Source: Planctomycetota bacterium (lineage in GTDB: Bacteria > Planctomycetota > Phycisphaerae > UBA1845 > UTPLA1). Taken from it: DNA of 64,000 nucleotides. Where the stretch lies: the NCBI GenBank assembly GCA_016235815.1, contig JACRIM010000052.1:62001-126000 (forward strand). The letters are read 5' to 3'. Below the pieces are notes generated by a model. It was not told the origin of the DNA and searched no databases. It saw nothing but the letters and a program-made list of their open reading frames with translations. Shown piece after piece: positions 53,237-64,000 of the stretch (position 1 is the stretch's first letter; every line of letters begins with the position of its first letter). Position numbers and translations under genes: made by a program.

Positions 53237-55255
53237 ATGGGTCGCGCGCAAACGATTCGACAGCGGTTCATACTTGCACTGTATGTAACGGCGGTAGCGG
53301 CGGTCTCATCTCCGGCGCTGGTAACCGGAGCGACGCGAACGTGGGAAGGGGACACTCCCGGCAACAGTAACTGGAGCACTTCATCCAACTGGGTCGGAAA
53401 CGCGGTCCCCGGATCGGGCGACATCGCCTTGTTCGATGGCACCGCGACGGGGAATTGCGTCATCAACTCAAACGTCAGCGTCGCCGGAATTACGATCGCG
53501 AACACATTTCCGGGGTCCCTCACACAATCAAGCGGCAGTACCGTAACGGTGGGTAGCACGGGCCTTTCCATTGCCGGTGGAACCTTTGTCGGTAGCGATT
53601 CAACCATCACCATCAACGGACCGTTCGCGCAATCCGGCGGCGTTTTCACGTCGACCAGCGGAAATATGAACATTCTCCGCAATTTCACCATCAGCGGCGG
53701 AACCTTCAACCACAACAACGGCACCATCACCCACACCAGCTATGACAAAACCATGAACATCGGCTCGGCGGTCCTGAAAAACCTTGTCATCGCCACCGGC
53801 GGCAACAGTCTGACGACGACGGGTACCGTGACAATTGCCGGCGATCTCACGATCAACTCCGTGAACTACATGAACGGCGGGACGATGGCCGTGGCGGGAA
53901 ATGTTGTATCAAATGACAGCAACCTCATTGGTTATCCCGGTACGGTGATCTTGTTTAATGGGACCGGCAATCAGACGTGGACGGCAGGCGTCACCGGTGC
54001 CATGGTGCCTTCCGTCGACATTAACAAACCATCGGGAACGCTCACCCTGGTCGGTTCGAACAATGTCTTCAACCACTGGACTCATACGGCGGGCAACGTC
54101 GATTGCGGTACCGGCACATTGACGTTCCTCGGTTATGACAAAACCGTAACGCCGGGAACGATGACCTACGGAAATGTCACCTACGACTCCGGTGGCAATA
54201 GCATCACCACCAACGGCACGATGACCGTGAACGGGACCTTCACGCTTAAGAGCGTGAACTACATGAACAGCGGCACCATCGCGGCCAAGGGAAACGTCGT
54301 GACCATGGACAACGCCCTGATCGGGTATCCCGGAACGATCATCGAATTCAGCGGGACGGGGAATCAGTCGCTCTCGGCCAACGGCGGCTACAACCTCGTT
54401 CCAAGCATGACCATCAACAAGCCGTCGGGAACGCTGACCATGACGGACTCCATCGGTGTGTTCAACAACTTCACCTACACGGCGGGAACGGTCGATGCAT
54501 CGGCCTGCACGGTGAAATTTGTCGGCTACGACAAGACGATCACCAGCACGGCCGGGATGGTGTTCAGCAATGTCGAAGTGGCGACGGGCGGCAACAGCGT
54601 CACCATCGCCGGCGCGCTGAAGTGCAGCGGAAACTTTACACTCACCTCGGTCAACTATTTTCAGGCCGCATCGTCTGGGACGAACGGCGCGCTCTACGTC
54701 GGCGGAAATCTCACCAGCGCGGACACGAGCGTGAACAGTTGGTACGGCGTGCCGATCATTCTGGACGGTAGCGGCGATCAGCTGTTGGACACCGCAGGCG
54801 GGACGGCCGTGTTTCCCAGGAACATCACCATCAACAAGGTGCGCTGCACGGGCGGCGAGGTGAAGCTGGCGGGAAATCTGCGGCTGAATCAAAGCAGCCA
54901 GACGCTGACGGTCGCGGAGGGAGCGTTGAATCTTCAGGGGTACTCACTGACCGTGAGCGGCAGTGGGGCAAAATTCATCGTCGAGCAGGGCGGCATCGTG
55001 AAGTTGGACACCGGCGCGATCATCACGACACCGATGTATTACCCCGAGCTTCGATGCGGGAGCATGGTCATCGTCAACGGCGGCAACACCTACACCTATC
55101 CATCGAATACGGCGGCCCAGCTTTCGGGCGTCGGCAGCAATACGAATTGGACGACGACGGGAACCTGCGTCTTGGCCGATACACCATCGTCGTGCAGCAC
55201 GGCGGAAAAGAAAAAGGTCATCCAGTGGACGGAGGTTAGAAATCGTGCGAGTTAG
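53237..55255 (+). CDS. Exported surface protein with three 131-residue repeats and KVIQWTEVR C-terminus
   Basis: 672 residues. A signal peptide (RFILALYVTAVAAVSSPALVTGA) leads to a beta-rich Gly/Thr/Asn-rich repetitive protein of the autotransporter/beta-helix look. Three long repeats start at 53741, 54134 and 54527, exactly 393 bases apart; each begins YDKT and contains GGNS, NYM/F and INK elements. The last residues are EKKKVIQWTEVRNRAS, shared with the next protein. Such proteins are probably at the cell surface. GGAGG is 10 bases before ATG 53237. The function and ligand are unknown. Confidence 0.85.
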   Translation: MGRAQTIRQRFILALYVTAVAAVSSPALVTGATRTWEGDTPGNSNWSTSSNWVGNAVPGSGDIALFDGTATGNCVINSNVSVAGITIANTFPGSLTQSSGSTVTVGSTGLSIAGGTFVGSDSTITINGPFAQSGGVFTSTSGNMNILRNFTISGGTFNHNNGTITHTSYDKTMNIGSAVLKNLVIATGGNSLTTTGTVTIAGDLTINSVNYMNGGTMAVAGNVVSNDSNLIGYPGTVILFNGTGNQTWTAGVTGAMVPSVDINKPSGTLTLVGSNNVFNHWTHTAGNVDCGTGTLTFLGYDKTVTPGTMTYGNVTYDSGGNSITTNGTMTVNGTFTLKSVNYMNSGTIAAKGNVVTMDNALIGYPGTIIEFSGTGNQSLSANGGYNLVPSMTINKPSGTLTMTDSIGVFNNFTYTAGTVDASACTVKFVGYDKTITSTAGMVFSNVEVATGGNSVTIAGALKCSGNFTLTSVNYFQAASSGTNGALYVGGNLTSADTSVNSWYGVPIILDGSGDQLLDTAGGTAVFPRNITINKVRCTGGEVKLAGNLRLNQSSQTLTVAEGALNLQGYSLTVSGSGAKFIVEQGGIVKLDTGAIITTPMYYPELRCGSMVIVNGGNTYTYPSNTAAQLSGVGSNTNWTTTGTCVLADTPSSCSTAEKKKVIQWTEVRNRAS

Positions 55256-58200
55256 TCCAGCCAAGTCTTCGTCACATCTCGATACACGCATCGCACGCGC
55301 CTTTTTGTTTGTCATTGTTTCGGCACTCTCGATTGTCAATGCCAGAGTACAAGCGGATGGGACCTCGTCCACGTTGCTATTGACGAGCCGGTCGGGCAGT
55401 CTCCAGCCGCGATATTCCGTCTACAGCGGTACGAGTTGGCCGGCAACGTCGGCAGCGCTTAGCGTGGGAGAAATCCAGGTATGGGTTTCGGCAAAGAACT
55501 GTCCGACGCGCAACGAACACGCGATGCTGACGGTTGACTATCAGGAAGACGTCAATATTCAGTTCTTCAACGGATCGTCGTGGAGTGGACTGAACGAGCT
55601 TTGCACGAAGACCGGCCAGACCGCCGGGCGGTGCATGGACCTGTGTTACGAATCGATTTCAGGCGACTTGCTCATCGCCTATTGGGTTGATACGAGTAAC
55701 AAGATCGGCTATCGAACCTACAGCGGTGGTTCAGTGTCCGGTCAGAGTTTTCGCGATTTCCCCACCAATAACACGGGAATCTGGATCCGACTTGTGGCGG
55801 ATCCAACGAACAACGATATCCACCTGTTCATGTTGAACTCCATTGGCATTTTGTATGCGTGCAAATGGGACGGCAGCGCATTTGGCTCGATTGAAACGTT
55901 GGAGTCGAACGCGAGCGCGAGCAGTGACGAGTGCTTCGCCGCTGTTTGCGAATCAAACTCCGGTACCGGGCTTGTAGCCTATGGCGAGAATGGCAGCAAT
56001 GATCTGAAGTATCGCGTTTGGACCGGAAGCGCGTGGGGATCCGAACAGACAGGGCCGAACGTCGGTGCGATTCCACGCTGGGTGCAATTGGCAGCGGACC
56101 CTAATTCCGACGCGATAATGTGCGCGGTGCTGGACAGCAATGAAGACATCAATGCAGCGGCGTGGAACGGATCATCGTGGGGGAGCGTTCTCGAATTGGA
56201 AACGACGGCATGTTGGACACAATGCCGGGCCATGGACGTCGCCTATGAGCCGCAAGGGACAAAGGCGCTCATTATCTACTCCGATAGCTGGGATAATCGC
56301 GTTCGGTATCGAACCTGGAGCGGCTCGGCGTGGTCGGCCGAGTCATGGGGGCCGGATCTTGGGGATACGCCGGTTCTTCATCAGCTTCGCACTGGAAAGT
56401 CCGGCAGCGAAATCTTCGCGGCCGTGCACGACAACGGAAGCGATGTAAACGTCTTCCAATGGAACGGCTCTGGCTTTTCTTCCAACACTCAGCTTGAGAC
56501 GGACATGAGCAATGCGTGGGGCAAGGAGTGCTTCACGTTGTCGGCGCCGGCCTTGCCTGGATTGACACCCGCGAACATTCCATACGGCCACGATTTCGAG
56601 ACGGCGATGGGACCGGAGTGGTCGAGTACGACGCGCGACTCGACGAGCGACTTCACCACGTTCGCCGGCCGTCACCGGACAATGCCGCTGAAGCTGGCGT
56701 TGAATACAACGGTGGGCGAAACCTATCGAATCGCGTTCGATTTCTACGCGATGGACTCGTGGGACGGTACAAATACCGGCGGAACCAACGGCCCCGACTA
56801 TTTCAAGGTCGGCGTGAACGGCACCACGGTGTTCAGCAACACATTCACCCATGAATATCCGTCGCAGGGGATGTCGTACCCATATCCATACGATCAGATG
56901 GGGCACTATGGATTTCAGTCGGGGATGAAGGACGCCATTTTTCGAAAGGTCGAGGTCGCATTCACGGCGGACAGCCCGGTCAGCAAAATTAGTTTCTACG
57001 GTGAGTTGGTGGACCCGTCGAGTGCGGGATTCAACGATGAAAGCTGGGGGATCGACAACGTCACCGTGCAGGCGGCCCGCTTTCGCGACGTGACCACCGC
57101 GAAGGGTTTCGCGGTCAACACGTGCACAAGTGCGGGAACCTCCGGTGCGGGTCTGCACTGGGCCGACGTCGACAACGACGGCGATCTTGATTGTTTCATC
57201 ACGGGTAACACGGCAAAGTATATGAAGAACACGAGCGCGGGTACGAGTTTCGCGACGACGTCTTTTCCGTTCACCAGCTTTCAGCGACAGGCCGCGCTGC
57301 TCGATATCGACAACGATGGCGACGTCGACATGTGGGATACCGCGATCAACAGCAACGACACCGAAGGCTGCGTACTCAACAATGGCAGCGGCGTGTTCAG
57401 CGATGCGGGCGCGCTGGGTTTCAGTGGCGGAGATACGAATGAAGCCTGCGCGGCGGGCGACATCAATCGCGACGGTTTCTGCGATCTCGCGATGTTCAGC
57501 GCCGATGGCAACTGGAAGATCATGCATCAGGGCGGAACAACGCCGATCTTGGCGGGGAGCGTGGTTGCGTCGGACGGAATGAATTCCCCCGGCGACTACG
57601 GAAACGGCGAGTATTGCAGCAGCGGCGACATCAACAACGACGGGTTTCCTGATTTCTTCTATTACTATGGCGACACGAAGCTGTTCCTTTCCAACGGCGA
57701 CGGTGCCTACACGCGGAACAACCACGGAATTTCGATGACGACCGGAACAGCGCTGAAGTGCGGCTCGGCGTGGGCGGACTTGGACAACGATGGCGATCTG
57801 GATCTAATCGCGCCGCGCAAGGATGAAGCTTGTACGGCGTACTATTGGCGCAACGATCGCAACTGGTCGGCGGGGACCGGTGCGTTCGTGAATGCGACGA
57901 GTTCGGCCGGGTTCAACCTCAACACGACGATCGACTACACGGCCGATCTGCCGGGCACGCGCAGTGTCGCGACAGGCGACTACGACAATGACGGCGATGT
58001 CGATGTACTCTTGGTCGGGACGAAGGGTGCGAACTACCTGTACACGAACAACAACAACGGGACCTTCTCGCGGTCGAACGAGGGTGTGGTGGCGAACGGA
58101 ACGTTCGTTGATGGCTGTTTCGTGGATTACGACAATGATGGTGATTTGGACATCGCCCTGACGCAGGAGAACGGCAACTCCTGTCTGTTTGAGAACCGAA

Positions 58201-58583
58201 CCGGCGGCACGGGCTATCTGAAGGTACGGCTCGTTGGCCGCGGGCAGGGCGGCACGAACAAAGCGTGCATTGGCACACGTGTGGAATTGTGGAACGCCGA
58301 TGGAACGGTTCGACTCGGTCGACGCGACGTAGGAAATGCACGCGGCTTCGGAGGGACCGAATGTGTGTGGCTGCACTTCGGAGGCGTGACGCCGACCACG
58401 ACCTATAAGCTAAAGATCTATTGGGCCAGCCGCAGCGCATCCGACCCATACACGGTGGATGTCGTGCCCAACAATGCCACCACAACGATTGGGAGCACCA
58501 CCATTCAGCGAATGGTCACGGCAACCGAGCAGAGTAAGAGCAAGGTGATACAGTGGACCGAGGTGCGGCATAAGGCCCCGTAA
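55245..58583 (+). CDS. FG-GAP/ASPIC surface protein with KVIQWTEVR C-terminus
   Basis: 1112 residues. A signal peptide (AFLFVIVSALSIVNARVQA) precedes a repeating W.GS.W beta-propeller-like region (about 40-430), a jelly-roll-like domain (about 440-600), seven FG-GAP/VCBS repeats with calcium-type DVDNDGDLD loops (about 610-980) and an ASPIC/UnbV domain (about 990-1080; TRVELWNADGTVRLGRRDVG). It ends KVIQWTEVRHKAP. The GTG start overlaps the previous gene by 11 bases, and GGAGG before it lies in the codons for the upstream tag, so translation is coupled. It probably binds at the cell surface. Confidence 0.88.
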   Translation: MRVSPAKSSSHLDTRIARAFLFVIVSALSIVNARVQADGTSSTLLLTSRSGSLQPRYSVYSGTSWPATSAALSVGEIQVWVSAKNCPTRNEHAMLTVDYQEDVNIQFFNGSSWSGLNELCTKTGQTAGRCMDLCYESISGDLLIAYWVDTSNKIGYRTYSGGSVSGQSFRDFPTNNTGIWIRLVADPTNNDIHLFMLNSIGILYACKWDGSAFGSIETLESNASASSDECFAAVCESNSGTGLVAYGENGSNDLKYRVWTGSAWGSEQTGPNVGAIPRWVQLAADPNSDAIMCAVLDSNEDINAAAWNGSSWGSVLELETTACWTQCRAMDVAYEPQGTKALIIYSDSWDNRVRYRTWSGSAWSAESWGPDLGDTPVLHQLRTGKSGSEIFAAVHDNGSDVNVFQWNGSGFSSNTQLETDMSNAWGKECFTLSAPALPGLTPANIPYGHDFETAMGPEWSSTTRDSTSDFTTFAGRHRTMPLKLALNTTVGETYRIAFDFYAMDSWDGTNTGGTNGPDYFKVGVNGTTVFSNTFTHEYPSQGMSYPYPYDQMGHYGFQSGMKDAIFRKVEVAFTADSPVSKISFYGELVDPSSAGFNDESWGIDNVTVQAARFRDVTTAKGFAVNTCTSAGTSGAGLHWADVDNDGDLDCFITGNTAKYMKNTSAGTSFATTSFPFTSFQRQAALLDIDNDGDVDMWDTAINSNDTEGCVLNNGSGVFSDAGALGFSGGDTNEACAAGDINRDGFCDLAMFSADGNWKIMHQGGTTPILAGSVVASDGMNSPGDYGNGEYCSSGDINNDGFPDFFYYYGDTKLFLSNGDGAYTRNNHGISMTTGTALKCGSAWADLDNDGDLDLIAPRKDEACTAYYWRNDRNWSAGTGAFVNATSSAGFNLNTTIDYTADLPGTRSVATGDYDNDGDVDVLLVGTKGANYLYTNNNNGTFSRSNEGVVANGTFVDGCFVDYDNDGDLDIALTQENGNSCLFENRTGGTGYLKVRLVGRGQGGTNKACIGTRVELWNADGTVRLGRRDVGNARGFGGTECVWLHFGGVTPTTTYKLKIYWASRSASDPYTVDVVPNNATTTIGSTTIQRMVTATEQSKSKVIQWTEVRHKAP

Positions 58584-60264: not shown

Positions 60265-60293
60265 TTGAATCGGCACTCATTTGGTGCTATATT
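60265..60293 (+). promoter_or_regulatory. Candidate promoter of the isc operon
   Basis: TTGAAT (60265-60270) and TATATT (60288-60293) with a 17-base spacer, 31 bases before the Rrf2 gene. The leader contains GGATGTCAAAAACAGAG, without a clear IscR box. Confidence 0.55.
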
Positions 60294-60324
60294 TCCGGCA
60301 GGATGTCAAAAACAGAGTGATGGC

Positions 60325-60810
60325 ATGTTCACGCTGACGAAGAAAACAGATTACGCGCTCATCGCCCTGACACATTTGGCCCGTCAAGATGCGGGCCGGA
60401 TTTCGACGTCGAGGGAGATTGTCGAGCGTTACAACGTGCCATCAGCCTTGTTAGTGAATGTATTGAAGGCCCTATGCCAGCATGAGTTGGTTCGCTCGAC
60501 GCGCGGCATGAAGGGCGGCTATGCCCTCGCGGTTCCGGCGGATGAGATAACGCTGTCCGCGATCATTCGGGCAACCGAGGGCCCGGTGAGGTTTGTGCAG
60601 TGTGCGGGCGAAGCGGAGCACGGGAGTTCGCCCTGCGACCTGATTTGCTCATGCCCGGTGATGCAGCCGGTGAAAAAGATACACCAGCGACTGGTTGATT
60701 TCCTGAATCAGGTCACCCTGGCTCAGATTGCGTTTGACGATGATTACGGAGACAACGGCGTCCCACTTTCAGTGGCGGGCGTCGCCTTAAAGACGGAGCA
60801 TGTTTCATGA
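60325..60810 (+). CDS. Rrf2-family regulator, IscR-like
   Basis: A 161-residue winged-helix regulator ([43 protein letters not shown]). Cys93, Cys104, Cys108 and Cys110 form a likely Fe-S site. E. coli IscR uses Cys92, 98 and 104, so spacing differs here. Its ATGA overlap with iscS places it as the operon's first gene; it probably senses Fe-S supply and represses isc when replete. Confidence 0.9.
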
Positions 60811-62021
60811 AGCTTCCCATTTACATGGATTACAACGCCACGACCCCGATGGACCCGCGCGTCGTGGAAGCAATGATGCCGTATATGACGACGAAGTTCG
60901 GCAACGCCGCCAGCCGAAATCACTCCTTCGGCTGGGAAGCTGAAGAAGGTGTGGAACACGCCCGCGAGCAGGTGGCCGCGGCCATCAACGCCTCATCCAA
61001 GGAAATCATCTGGACCAGCGGCGCAACCGAGTCCAACAACATCGCCATCAAGGGCGTCGCGAACATGTACAAAGACAAGGGCAACCACATCATCAGCCAG
61101 GTGATCGAGCACAAGGCCGTCATCGACCCTTGCAAATACCTCGAACAAAACGGCTTCGAAGTGACATTCCTGCCGGTGGATAAGCACGGAATGGTCAGCG
61201 CCGAGCAGGTGCGCGAAGCAATGACGGATAAGACGATCCTCGTCTCCCTCATGCACGGCAACAACGAAATCGGCTCAATAAACCCGATCAAGGACATCGG
61301 CCGTCTTTGCAAGGAGAAGGGTGTCCTCTTCCACACCGACTGCTGCCAGACCTTTGCGAAGATTCCGATCGACGTCGAAGACATGGGCATCGATCTGCTC
61401 TCCGCCTCGGGCCACAAGATCTACGGCCCCAAGGGCGTCGGCGCGTTGTACGTCCGCCGGAAGAAGCCCCGTGTCCGCTGCGAACCAATCGTCCACGGCG
61501 GCGGCCACGAGCGCGGAATGCGCAGCGGCACCATGAACGTGCCCGGCATCGTCGGCATGGGCAAGGCCGCCGAACTATGCGTGCAGAATCAGGCGGAAGA
61601 AATCGCGAAGATCACGCGGATGCGCGACCGTCTGAAGGACGGCCTGTTCAATCGACTGGATGAAATCTTCTTGAACGGCCACCCGACCCAGCGAATCCCG
61701 AATAACCTGAATATCAGCTTCCTCTACGTCGAAGGCGAAAGCCTGATGATGGGCTTCAGTGACATCGCGGTGAGCAGCGGCTCAGCCTGCACCAGCGCAT
61801 CCCTCGAACCAAGCTATGTGCTCAAAGCCCTCGGCCTTGGCGACGATCTGGCCCACAGCTCAATCCGATTCTCCATCGGGCGTTTCACGACCGAGGAAGA
61901 AATCGACTACACGATCGAGCGCGTGTGCGTGGCCGTGGAGAAGTTGCGAGAAATGAGTCCGTTATACGAAATGGCCCAGGAAGGCATCGACCTGAAAACG
62001 GTGCAGTGGGCCCATCACTAA
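60807..62021 (+). CDS. iscS: Cysteine desulfurase IscS
   Basis: A 404-residue PLP enzyme that takes sulfur from cysteine for Fe-S clusters and thionucleosides. PLP Lys204 is in [12 protein letters not shown] and the persulfide Cys328 in SSGSACTS, numbered as in E. coli. [14 protein letters not shown] and [13 protein letters not shown] match the family. It is coupled to the Rrf2 gene by ATGA. The scaffold iscU is normally adjacent but here lies 709 bases on. Confidence 0.97.
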
Positions 62022-62052
62022 TGAGTCGCGAGGATGTTCCGAGCAAACGAAG

Positions 62053-62430
62053 ATGTCCGAAAAGTGGGATGACATTGCCAAGGATTCGCTTGCCGCGGCC
62101 GGCGCGTGCCTACGGAACGGCAACTGGCGCAGTGCAACAAGTCGATCCTATTACGCAATATTCGCCAAGGTAACAGGTGAACTGTGTACCAATGGAATGC
62201 TGCCCCCAAAGGGTCGTGAAAATTGGTCCCACCGCGATTTGCCTCAGATGGTTCTGAATCATTTGATGCAAAAGAACGGTGCTCGCGTCAAGGACGTTAG
62301 CCGAATGCTAAAAGTCGCATACAAAGACCGAATAAACGCTGATTATGTCACGATGCAGGCGACCGACCGACAGACTGCAATACGAGCGGTGTCAAACGCC
62401 AGTTCAGTATTGCGGAGATTGGAGGCATAG
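62053..62430 (+). CDS. HEPN-like protein inserted in the isc operon
   Basis: A 125-residue helical protein with NWRSATSRSYYAIFAKV, the core helix of HEPN proteins (RxxxSRxYYAxF). HEPN proteins are often RNases or partners of MNT nucleotidyltransferases in toxin systems; the RxxxxH catalytic motif is not clear here. It lies 31 bases after iscS on the same strand. The base composition seems AT-richer than its neighbours. Its presence between iscS and iscU suggests insertion. Confidence 0.72.
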   Translation: MSEKWDDIAKDSLAAAGACLRNGNWRSATSRSYYAIFAKVTGELCTNGMLPPKGRENWSHRDLPQMVLNHLMQKNGARVKDVSRMLKVAYKDRINADYVTMQATDRQTAIRAVSNASSVLRRLEA

Positions 62431-62432
62431 TC

Positions 62433-62699
62433 ATGGCTATCAAGGTTCTCTCGAATCCTTCGGACGTTGCATCGATGGTCCAGTCCTATCTCGATAAGGA
62501 CCAGCCCAATACATATAGACTCAGCGTCGTGGCTGATGGACTTCGCCAGGACGGTGATTGGTGGTATGTGGTAGTGGTCCCGGACCGAAACGGGGTCCGC
62601 GCCCATGACTATTCAGAGAAACTCACAACAATCGAGGATCGCATTAGAGAAAAGGAGCAAATGAACTTGCTCCTGGTCCCGGCATTGGTGGACGATTAG
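62433..62699 (+). CDS. Small protein, partner of HEPN gene
   Basis: An 88-residue alpha/beta protein (IKVLSNPSDVASMVQSYLD, DWWYVVVVPDRNGVRAHDYSEKL). It starts 2 bases after the HEPN gene with GGAGG 7 bases before the ATG, so they are co-translated. It lacks a nucleotidyltransferase motif and could be the antitoxin of a HEPN pair. No family is recognised. Confidence 0.7.
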   Translation: MAIKVLSNPSDVASMVQSYLDKDQPNTYRLSVVADGLRQDGDWWYVVVVPDRNGVRAHDYSEKLTTIEDRIREKEQMNLLLVPALVDD

Positions 62700-62730
62700 G
62701 CCGACACATATTTGAAATGGAGAGTTTTCA

Positions 62731-63138
62731 ATGTCATACAGCGATAAAGTCGTAGACCATTATGAACATCCCCGAAACGTCGGCTCGTTCGACAAGAACG
62801 ACCCGCTCGTGGGCACGGGGATTGTCGGCGCGCCCGAATGCGGCGACGTCATGAAGCTGCAGATCAAGTGCGACGATAACGGCCGGATCGTGGACGCCAA
62901 GTTCAAGACCTTCGGCTGCGGATCGGCCATCGCCTCCAGCTCGCTCGCGACCGAGTGGGTCAAGGGCAAGACCGTGGATGAAGCTCTGCAGATCAAGAAC
63001 ACGGAGATCGTCAGGGAATTGTCCCTGCCGCCCGTGAAGATTCACTGCAGCGTGCTGGCCGAGGATGCCATTCGTGCCGCCATCAGCGATTTCAAGGCCA
63101 AGTCCGAGGCACGCACCGGCGCGACCGCGGGGGCTTGA
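62731..63138 (+). CDS. iscU: Iron-sulfur scaffold protein IscU
   Basis: A 135-residue scaffold. Cys37 (GAPECGD, with Asp39), Cys63 (FGCGSA) and Cys106 (HCSVLAED, with His105) bind the nascent cluster, at E. coli positions. It receives sulfur from IscS and delivers clusters with HscB and chaperones. Normal length. It lies 31 bases after the small unknown gene. Confidence 0.97.
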   Translation: MSYSDKVVDHYEHPRNVGSFDKNDPLVGTGIVGAPECGDVMKLQIKCDDNGRIVDAKFKTFGCGSAIASSSLATEWVKGKTVDEALQIKNTEIVRELSLPPVKIHCSVLAEDAIRAAISDFKAKSEARTGATAGA

Positions 63139-63244
63139 AGCGGCGGGTGTTTGTCCGTTGAATACGCGGCGGGCGCGAAGAATCGCGCTCGCGTAAACAT
63201 GGGATTTTCGCGCGATCCGACCGGATGCGCAGGAGATAAGAAAA

Positions 63245-63574
63245 ATGGTTCAGATCACCGAACGAGCGGCAAGTGAAGTCAAGACGATCATCGAGCAGCA
63301 GAAGCTGGATGCCGAGAAAACCTACCTTCGCGTCGGCGTGAAGGGCGGCGGCTGCAGCGGCTTCTCTTACACACTCGACCTCACCGAGAACGTCAGCGAG
63401 AACGACGAGCAATGGGAAGTCGGCGGCGTCAAGGTCATCTGCGACCCCAAGAGCCACATCTACCTTCAAGGCACGGCGGTGGACTTTAAGGACGAAATCA
63501 TGGGCCGCGGCTTCGTGTTCAACAATCCGAACGCCACACATACCTGCGGATGCGGCAGCAGCTTCAGCGCCTAA
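63245..63574 (+). CDS. iscA: A-type Fe-S carrier IscA
   Basis: A 109-residue HesB/IscA protein. The ligand cysteines are Cys37 (GGGCSGF) and Cys101/Cys103 (HTCGCGSSF). It carries clusters or iron to targets. The gap to iscU is 106 bases and to hscB 105; the latter contains a strong hairpin. Confidence 0.96.
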   Translation: MVQITERAASEVKTIIEQQKLDAEKTYLRVGVKGGGCSGFSYTLDLTENVSENDEQWEVGGVKVICDPKSHIYLQGTAVDFKDEIMGRGFVFNNPNATHTCGCGSSFSA

Positions 63575-63626
63575 GGCGCCACGAGTGATCCCAGCCGTCG
63601 GCGTTCGTCCGGCGAAAGTGCATGTG

Positions 63627-63676
63627 CCCGCCTGCCGGACACGAGGTTTCGATGGTCCGCAGGCGGGTTATTTATT
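63627..63676 (+). terminator. Hairpin with T-rich tail between iscA and hscB
   Basis: CCCGCCTGCCGGAC (63627-63640) pairs with GTCCGCAGGCGGG (63655-63667), with one bulged C, over a 14-base loop. TTATTTATT follows. It would end or attenuate transcription before hscB. Confidence 0.7.
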
Positions 63677-63679
63677 GAC

Positions 63680-64000
63680 ATGATGGACGTTCATCTCACA
63701 AGTCAGTCCGACGCCGCGACCCCGGTCCGCTGCAGCACCTGCGAGATGCTCCACCACGCGCCCCTGGCCTGCCAGGATTGCCACGACCTGTTGGATCATG
63801 TGCAGGGCGCCGATTACTTCGAGCTGTTCGGCCTGCCGCGCGGCTACCACGTGGACCTCGCCGAGCTTGGCCGCCGCTATCTCAGCATCAGCCGCAACAT
63901 CCACCCGGACAAATTCGCCGCGGCCGGCGCTGAAATGCAGTCCTTCGCCCTGCGAATGTCCGCCGCCGTGAACAAAGCGCACGACGTCCTGCGTGATCCC
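63680..64000 (+). CDS. hscB: Fe-S J-domain co-chaperone HscB, 3' end missing
   Basis: The frame from ATG 63680 (a second ATG at 63683) runs off the right edge. The N-terminus has two CxxC pairs (RCSTC, ACQDC), a zinc finger of the type seen in human HSC20. The J domain follows: DYFELFGLPRGYHVD, HPDKF, and MSAAVNKAHDVLRDP, with the HPD loop that activates the HscA/DnaK partner. It would hand the cluster from IscU to targets. Confidence 0.9.
   Translation, partial: MMDVHLTSQSDAATPVRCSTCEMLHHAPLACQDCHDLLDHVQGADYFELFGLPRGYHVDLAELGRRYLSISRNIHPDKFAAAGAEMQSFALRMSAAVNKAHDVLRDP

Follow-up and report, generated by a model that had tools for sequence, protein, structure and literature searches.

The window, a 64,000-nucleotide stretch of contig JACRIM010000052.1 from a Planctomycetota bacterium, contains two adjacent genes, ORF1 and ORF2, whose products end in the same nine residues. 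The features considered here are:

53237..55255, + strand: ORF1, ATG start, 672 aa, beta-solenoid-like exported protein with an apparent signal peptide
55214..55252, + strand: C-terminal tag of ORF1, KVIQWTEVR followed by NRAS
55245..58583, + strand: ORF2, GTG start, 1112 aa, exported protein with an apparent signal peptide and a C-terminal tag
58542..58580, + strand: C-terminal tag of ORF2, KVIQWTEVR followed by HKAP
60265..60810, + strand: Rrf2-type regulator, neighbor of ORF1/ORF2, assigned by eye from the sequence
60807..62021, + strand: IscS-like cysteine desulfurase, neighbor of ORF1/ORF2, assigned by eye from the sequence
about 62731..63138: IscU-like protein of the ISC operon downstream of ORF2

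The two C-termini (...AEKKKVIQWTEVRNRAS and ...QSKSKVIQWTEVRHKAP, each followed by the stop) bear out the claim of an earlier note on this DNA that KVIQWTEVR, with four residues after it, closes both proteins. Six of the nine codons were said to differ; comparison of positions 55214-55240 in ORF1 with 58542-58568 in ORF2 gives five (GTC/GTG, ATC/ATA, ACG/ACC, GTT/GTG and AGA/CGG), with six of the 27 nucleotides changed. All six changes are synonymous, as the note had held in proposing conservation at the protein level, and this pattern has P of about 1-2e-4 under neutrality. Among about 4000 pairs of adjacent genes, the probability that chance alone gives even one identical terminal 9-mer is about 2e-7. 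The two proteins are otherwise unrelated, as also proposed: with the last 28 residues cut off, their bodies have no BLAST match at E<=1e-5. ORF2 consists of a propeller-like N-terminal part and a lectin-like middle (both labels assigned by eye), followed by FG-GAP repeats (Pfam PF13517, E 1.2e-30) and the tag. The reading frames overlap by 11 nt and the two genes may therefore be translationally coupled.

The genes at 60265..62021 on the + strand begin an ISC operon that reaches HscB and HscA at the end of the window. Its order (window 60265-64000 and G000:C35:125845-128255) is Rrf2-type regulator, IscS, IscU-like protein, HscB and HscA, and in some related genomes SUF genes take its place. 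Several genomes of the window's family have their tagged genes upstream of an Rrf2-type regulator and of ISC or SUF genes; other genomes have them at different places. HscB scores above its cut-off in most genomes of this family examined and weakly in a second tagged family, f9.

Anatomy and distribution of the tag

The 44 tags that we collected come from several families of Phycisphaerae, so that the motif extends beyond the two genes of the window. Their consensus, approximately [RK]-[VI]-[VI]-x-W-R-E-[VI], leaves 2-9 variable residues before the stop; we call it the WREV tag. The W and E are invariant in all 44; position -4 is R or K in 42, position -3 is V or I in 41, position +1 is R in 33 and position +3 is V or I in 41. 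Profile matches at E<1e-3 (17 in the window's family and 20 in f9) are C-terminal without exception and lie 2-9 residues before the stop. Random placement and cytosolic carriers had been named as outcomes that would speak against a tag; good matches are instead C-terminal and on proteins of exported type. Across an alignment of nine ORF2 orthologues, W1096 and E1098 are invariant. An AlphaFold model of ORF2, built from a seven-sequence alignment, has a mean pLDDT of 43.6 and reaches 70-90 in parts of the last domain. In this weak model the tag comes after the final strand of that domain, is unstructured and has pLDDT below 50; this is compatible with an exposed tail without supporting it strongly. 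With its core 2-9 residues away from the end, the tag is unlikely to be recognized as a free C-terminus in the manner of PDZ ligands.

ORF2 orthologues in other genera of the window's family retain the tail (KVIKWNEVPNRAS, RILFWREVPNKTS, RIIQWSEVRNRASGG and others). ORF1 orthologues with the tag occur in two other genera, and ORF1-type proteins in two genomes of the family, G001 and G005, end in the same core. Further carriers in this family are an 848-residue protein (G007), a propeller-like protein (G011) and a protein with beta-helix and lectin-like parts (G009). A profile search over 114 genomes of the order gave E<1e-3 matches in the window's family exclusively. The tag is also present at L208, L209, L212, L213 (in two adjacent genes) and L214, in records named Phycisphaerales, Phycisphaeraceae or Planctomycetota. 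A class-level search pointed to f9, and 150 genomes of that family yielded 20 matches at E<1e-3, all of them C-terminal. We infer that f9 belongs to Phycisphaerae, since the tagged genes of its genome G854 are shared with the Phycisphaerales record behind L213.

Matches to a strict WREVPN pattern were found in 9 of 392 Planctomycetota genomes, about the control level; its PN is particular to the window's family, and the strict pattern leaves room for looser tags elsewhere. A wider W-x-E pattern gave 64 sites in the window's own genome and no convincing tag beyond the two described here, the other C-terminal sites being short and poor matches. In the sister family f8, the ORF2 orthologue carries a different, longer tail and the tag is therefore replaceable there. 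In another lineage, the ORF2 orthologues at L182, L183, L210 and L211 have a conserved tail of another kind, about 40 residues long (for example RDAVGFVAPTKPVSDMSNLDQN), and those at L182, L183 and L210 lie antisense within minor-pseudopilin or T4P genes.

Carriers and within-genome similarity of their tags

A simple hydropathy scan, used in place of a trained predictor, places a signal-like hydrophobic segment at the N-terminus of about 37 of 40 checked carriers. None of the 40 has a C-terminal membrane helix (over their last 45 residues, the mean hydropathy of any 16-residue stretch does not exceed 1.3). Without their tails, the carrier bodies fall into four clusters with no detectable similarity between clusters, one single-linkage cluster holding 27 of the 40. 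Tagged partners in the same genome are unrelated in G000, G005, G007, G693, G819, G842 and G854. The same terminal motif is thus found on unrelated exported proteins, the property by which C-terminal sorting tags are recognized. FG-GAP, PA14, LamG and beta-helix domains from Pfam recur across different carriers. Several contain the NCBIfam domain choice-of-anchor Q (NF041518), a name given to a domain type that precedes alternative C-terminal sorting signals. Tagged genes recur in adjacent pairs and number 1-3 per genome, far from the many tagged signal-peptide proteins that had been expected.

The tagged protein of G679 (L316:8204-10135) contains Pfam DUF7305, which we take to be possibly linked to pilus proteins. 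A related family of secreted proteins adjoins tagged genes in three genomes (L142:3971-7969, L145:5666-9322 and L150:12586-14220); its L145 member has cadherin-like, Big and RTX repeats.

Tags on unrelated proteins of one genome are more alike than tags between genera (p=2e-4 by a permutation that corrects for relatedness inside genera only in part). Several such pairs differ synonymously at 6-8 codons and, in G854, one tag lies on another contig and is still similar to its co-genomic counterpart. The effect is weak in G005 and G007 (2 of 10 multi-tag genomes) and in G819. The window is the clearest case: the cores of ORF1 and ORF2 agree at 9/9 positions, whereas each agrees at only about 4/9 with its own G005 orthologue, to which the bodies are 49-54% identical. 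Together, the similarity within genomes and the many synonymous codon differences suggest a common reader of the tags in each genome. Shared ancestry of transplanted tails inside a genus could explain part of the similarity.

Candidate functions of the tag

The shared peptide is real and part of something larger than first noted, a C-terminal tag that shows good signs of having a common reader. KVIQWTEVR is probably (about 0.6) one of a family of C-terminal tags that Phycisphaerae place on modular, beta-rich proteins exported via Sec and that one lineage-specific envelope factor reads. Directly supported are the position and distribution of the tag, the invariance of its W and E, the lack of relation between carrier bodies, the apparent signal peptides and the similarity within genomes. 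We envision a scenario in which a carrier is first exported via Sec, after which a single lineage-specific envelope factor would recognize the tag as a linear peptide and retain, attach or further secrete the protein, the tag doing the job that PEP-CTERM or LPXTG does on other proteins. Of the possible roles, sorting or attachment is the likeliest, and our preferred interpretation is a new C-terminal signal for one of them that would act without the usual hydrophobic helix. More tentatively, and against somewhat unfavorable odds, we speculate that Phycisphaerae have an undescribed sorting pathway whose signal is a linear C-terminal peptide without a helix and whose new reader (a soluble transpeptidase, a secretion receptor or a dedicated chaperone) would co-evolve with the tag in each lineage.

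Several observations count against the sorting explanation. One to three carriers per genome is low for a general sorting system, the ORF2 orthologue of f8 has its different tail, and no dedicated transmembrane enzyme of the kind anticipated in the earlier note is adjacent to the tag in the neighborhoods examined. That note's proposal of a sorting, attachment or secretion tag read by a dedicated system therefore stands in part: a helix-free C-terminal tag, within about 10 residues of the end, is present on unrelated exported bodies with signs of a common reader, but the expectation of many substrates and of a dedicated transmembrane enzyme is so far unsupported.

The tag could instead be a client peptide of the neighboring HscA-like Hsp70, a basic-flanked hydrophobic stretch that the chaperone would hold before export. 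The motif that HscA binds in IscU, LPPVK, is short and strict. At 20 of 23 f9 loci, the tag gene lies 3' of an HscA-like Hsp70 gene on the same strand, with varied carrier architectures and, at a few of the 20, a transporter or other gene between the two; this Hsp70 is absent from 10 of 10 control loci of the same class and has HscA models as its best or nearly best matches, mostly under their cut-offs. Its distribution weakens this reading, which we regard as unlikely. Chaperone and motif do not co-occur consistently in f9: about 120 of the 150 genomes have an Hsp70 orthologue, many with no detected tag, and G748 has the tag with only a DnaK-like match. In G724 and at a second G854 locus the tag is not adjacent to Hsp70, and only 3 genomes of the window's family have an ISC-operon HscA near the tag. 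Moreover, synteny at the Hsp70-tag loci extends to pheT and ilvE and the linkage may therefore be hitchhiking.

Less probable again is recognition of the tag by a machine of the type II secretion or type IV pilus-like kind, by which the carriers would be displayed or released. A minor-pseudopilin or T4P operon encloses the ORF2 orthologue, in antisense orientation, in f8 and at L210. Among f9 genomes, the genes that follow Hsp70 are gspF and pseudopilin genes in G042 and pseudopilin genes in G135; in the tagged genomes G728, G785 and G832 such genes lie further downstream (all identities by eye). However, the WREV tag is absent from the f8 orthologues, the surroundings of the tag in the window's family contain no secretion or pilus genes, and we know of no linear T2SS signal established in the literature. 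The least probable account is a tail without a reader, passed on as a leftover of an ancestral C-terminus and spread from gene to gene through recombination or gene conversion. In its favor, tagged genes frequently stand side by side, and domains are common to many carriers (27 of 40 are in the one cluster); the invariant W and E, the exclusively synonymous changes in the window's pair, the abundant synonymous divergence of other pairs and the similar tag on another G854 contig all argue against it.

Comparison with known C-terminal signals

Our survey of open-access literature on C-terminal sorting signals returned known systems only and no paper linking WREV to planctomycetes, and the tag behaves like an undescribed protein-sorting signal. 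The earlier note's view that it is not of the PEP-CTERM, LPXTG or GlyGly-CTERM type holds, and extends to MYXO-CTERM: no hydrophobic segment follows the signature in any of 40 carriers, and none of the curated models for PEP-CTERM, LPXTG, GlyGly-CTERM, MYXO-CTERM or the Por secretion tail is among the NCBIfam matches of 11 carriers. The C-terminal domain of type IX secretion is likewise a C-terminal signal on exported proteins, as the WREV tag may be, but it is folded and tens of residues long, whereas the tag has about 8 residues and a short tail and matched no such model. The LPPVK of IscU is also short, and an HscA-type chaperone gene is near many tag loci; the tag, a putative HscA client, differs in sequence, is C-terminal and sits on exported carriers.

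PEP-CTERM, the tag of the exosortase system, is found at the C-terminus of diverse Sec-exported proteins (PMC1569441), as is the WREV tag, which has neither the PEP motif nor the hydrophobic helix and terminal arginine cluster, gives no NCBIfam CTERM match and is limited to 1-3 carriers per genome. GlyGly-CTERM and MYXO-CTERM, read by rhombosortase and myxosortase, are tripartite, with a signature, a hydrophobic segment and basic residues (PMC3237569, PMC6219818, PMC11980579); the WREV tag would share with them the C-terminal sorting of exported proteins, but it has no hydrophobic segment and 2-9 residues after its core. Exosortases, rhombosortase and myxosortase are export or anchoring systems that were discovered through their sorting tags. 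If our reading is true, a tag with an invariant W and E and no membrane helix would mark a surface-protein pathway built differently, in a class that has been little studied, and the WREV tag provides a precise sequence handle with which to search for its reader.
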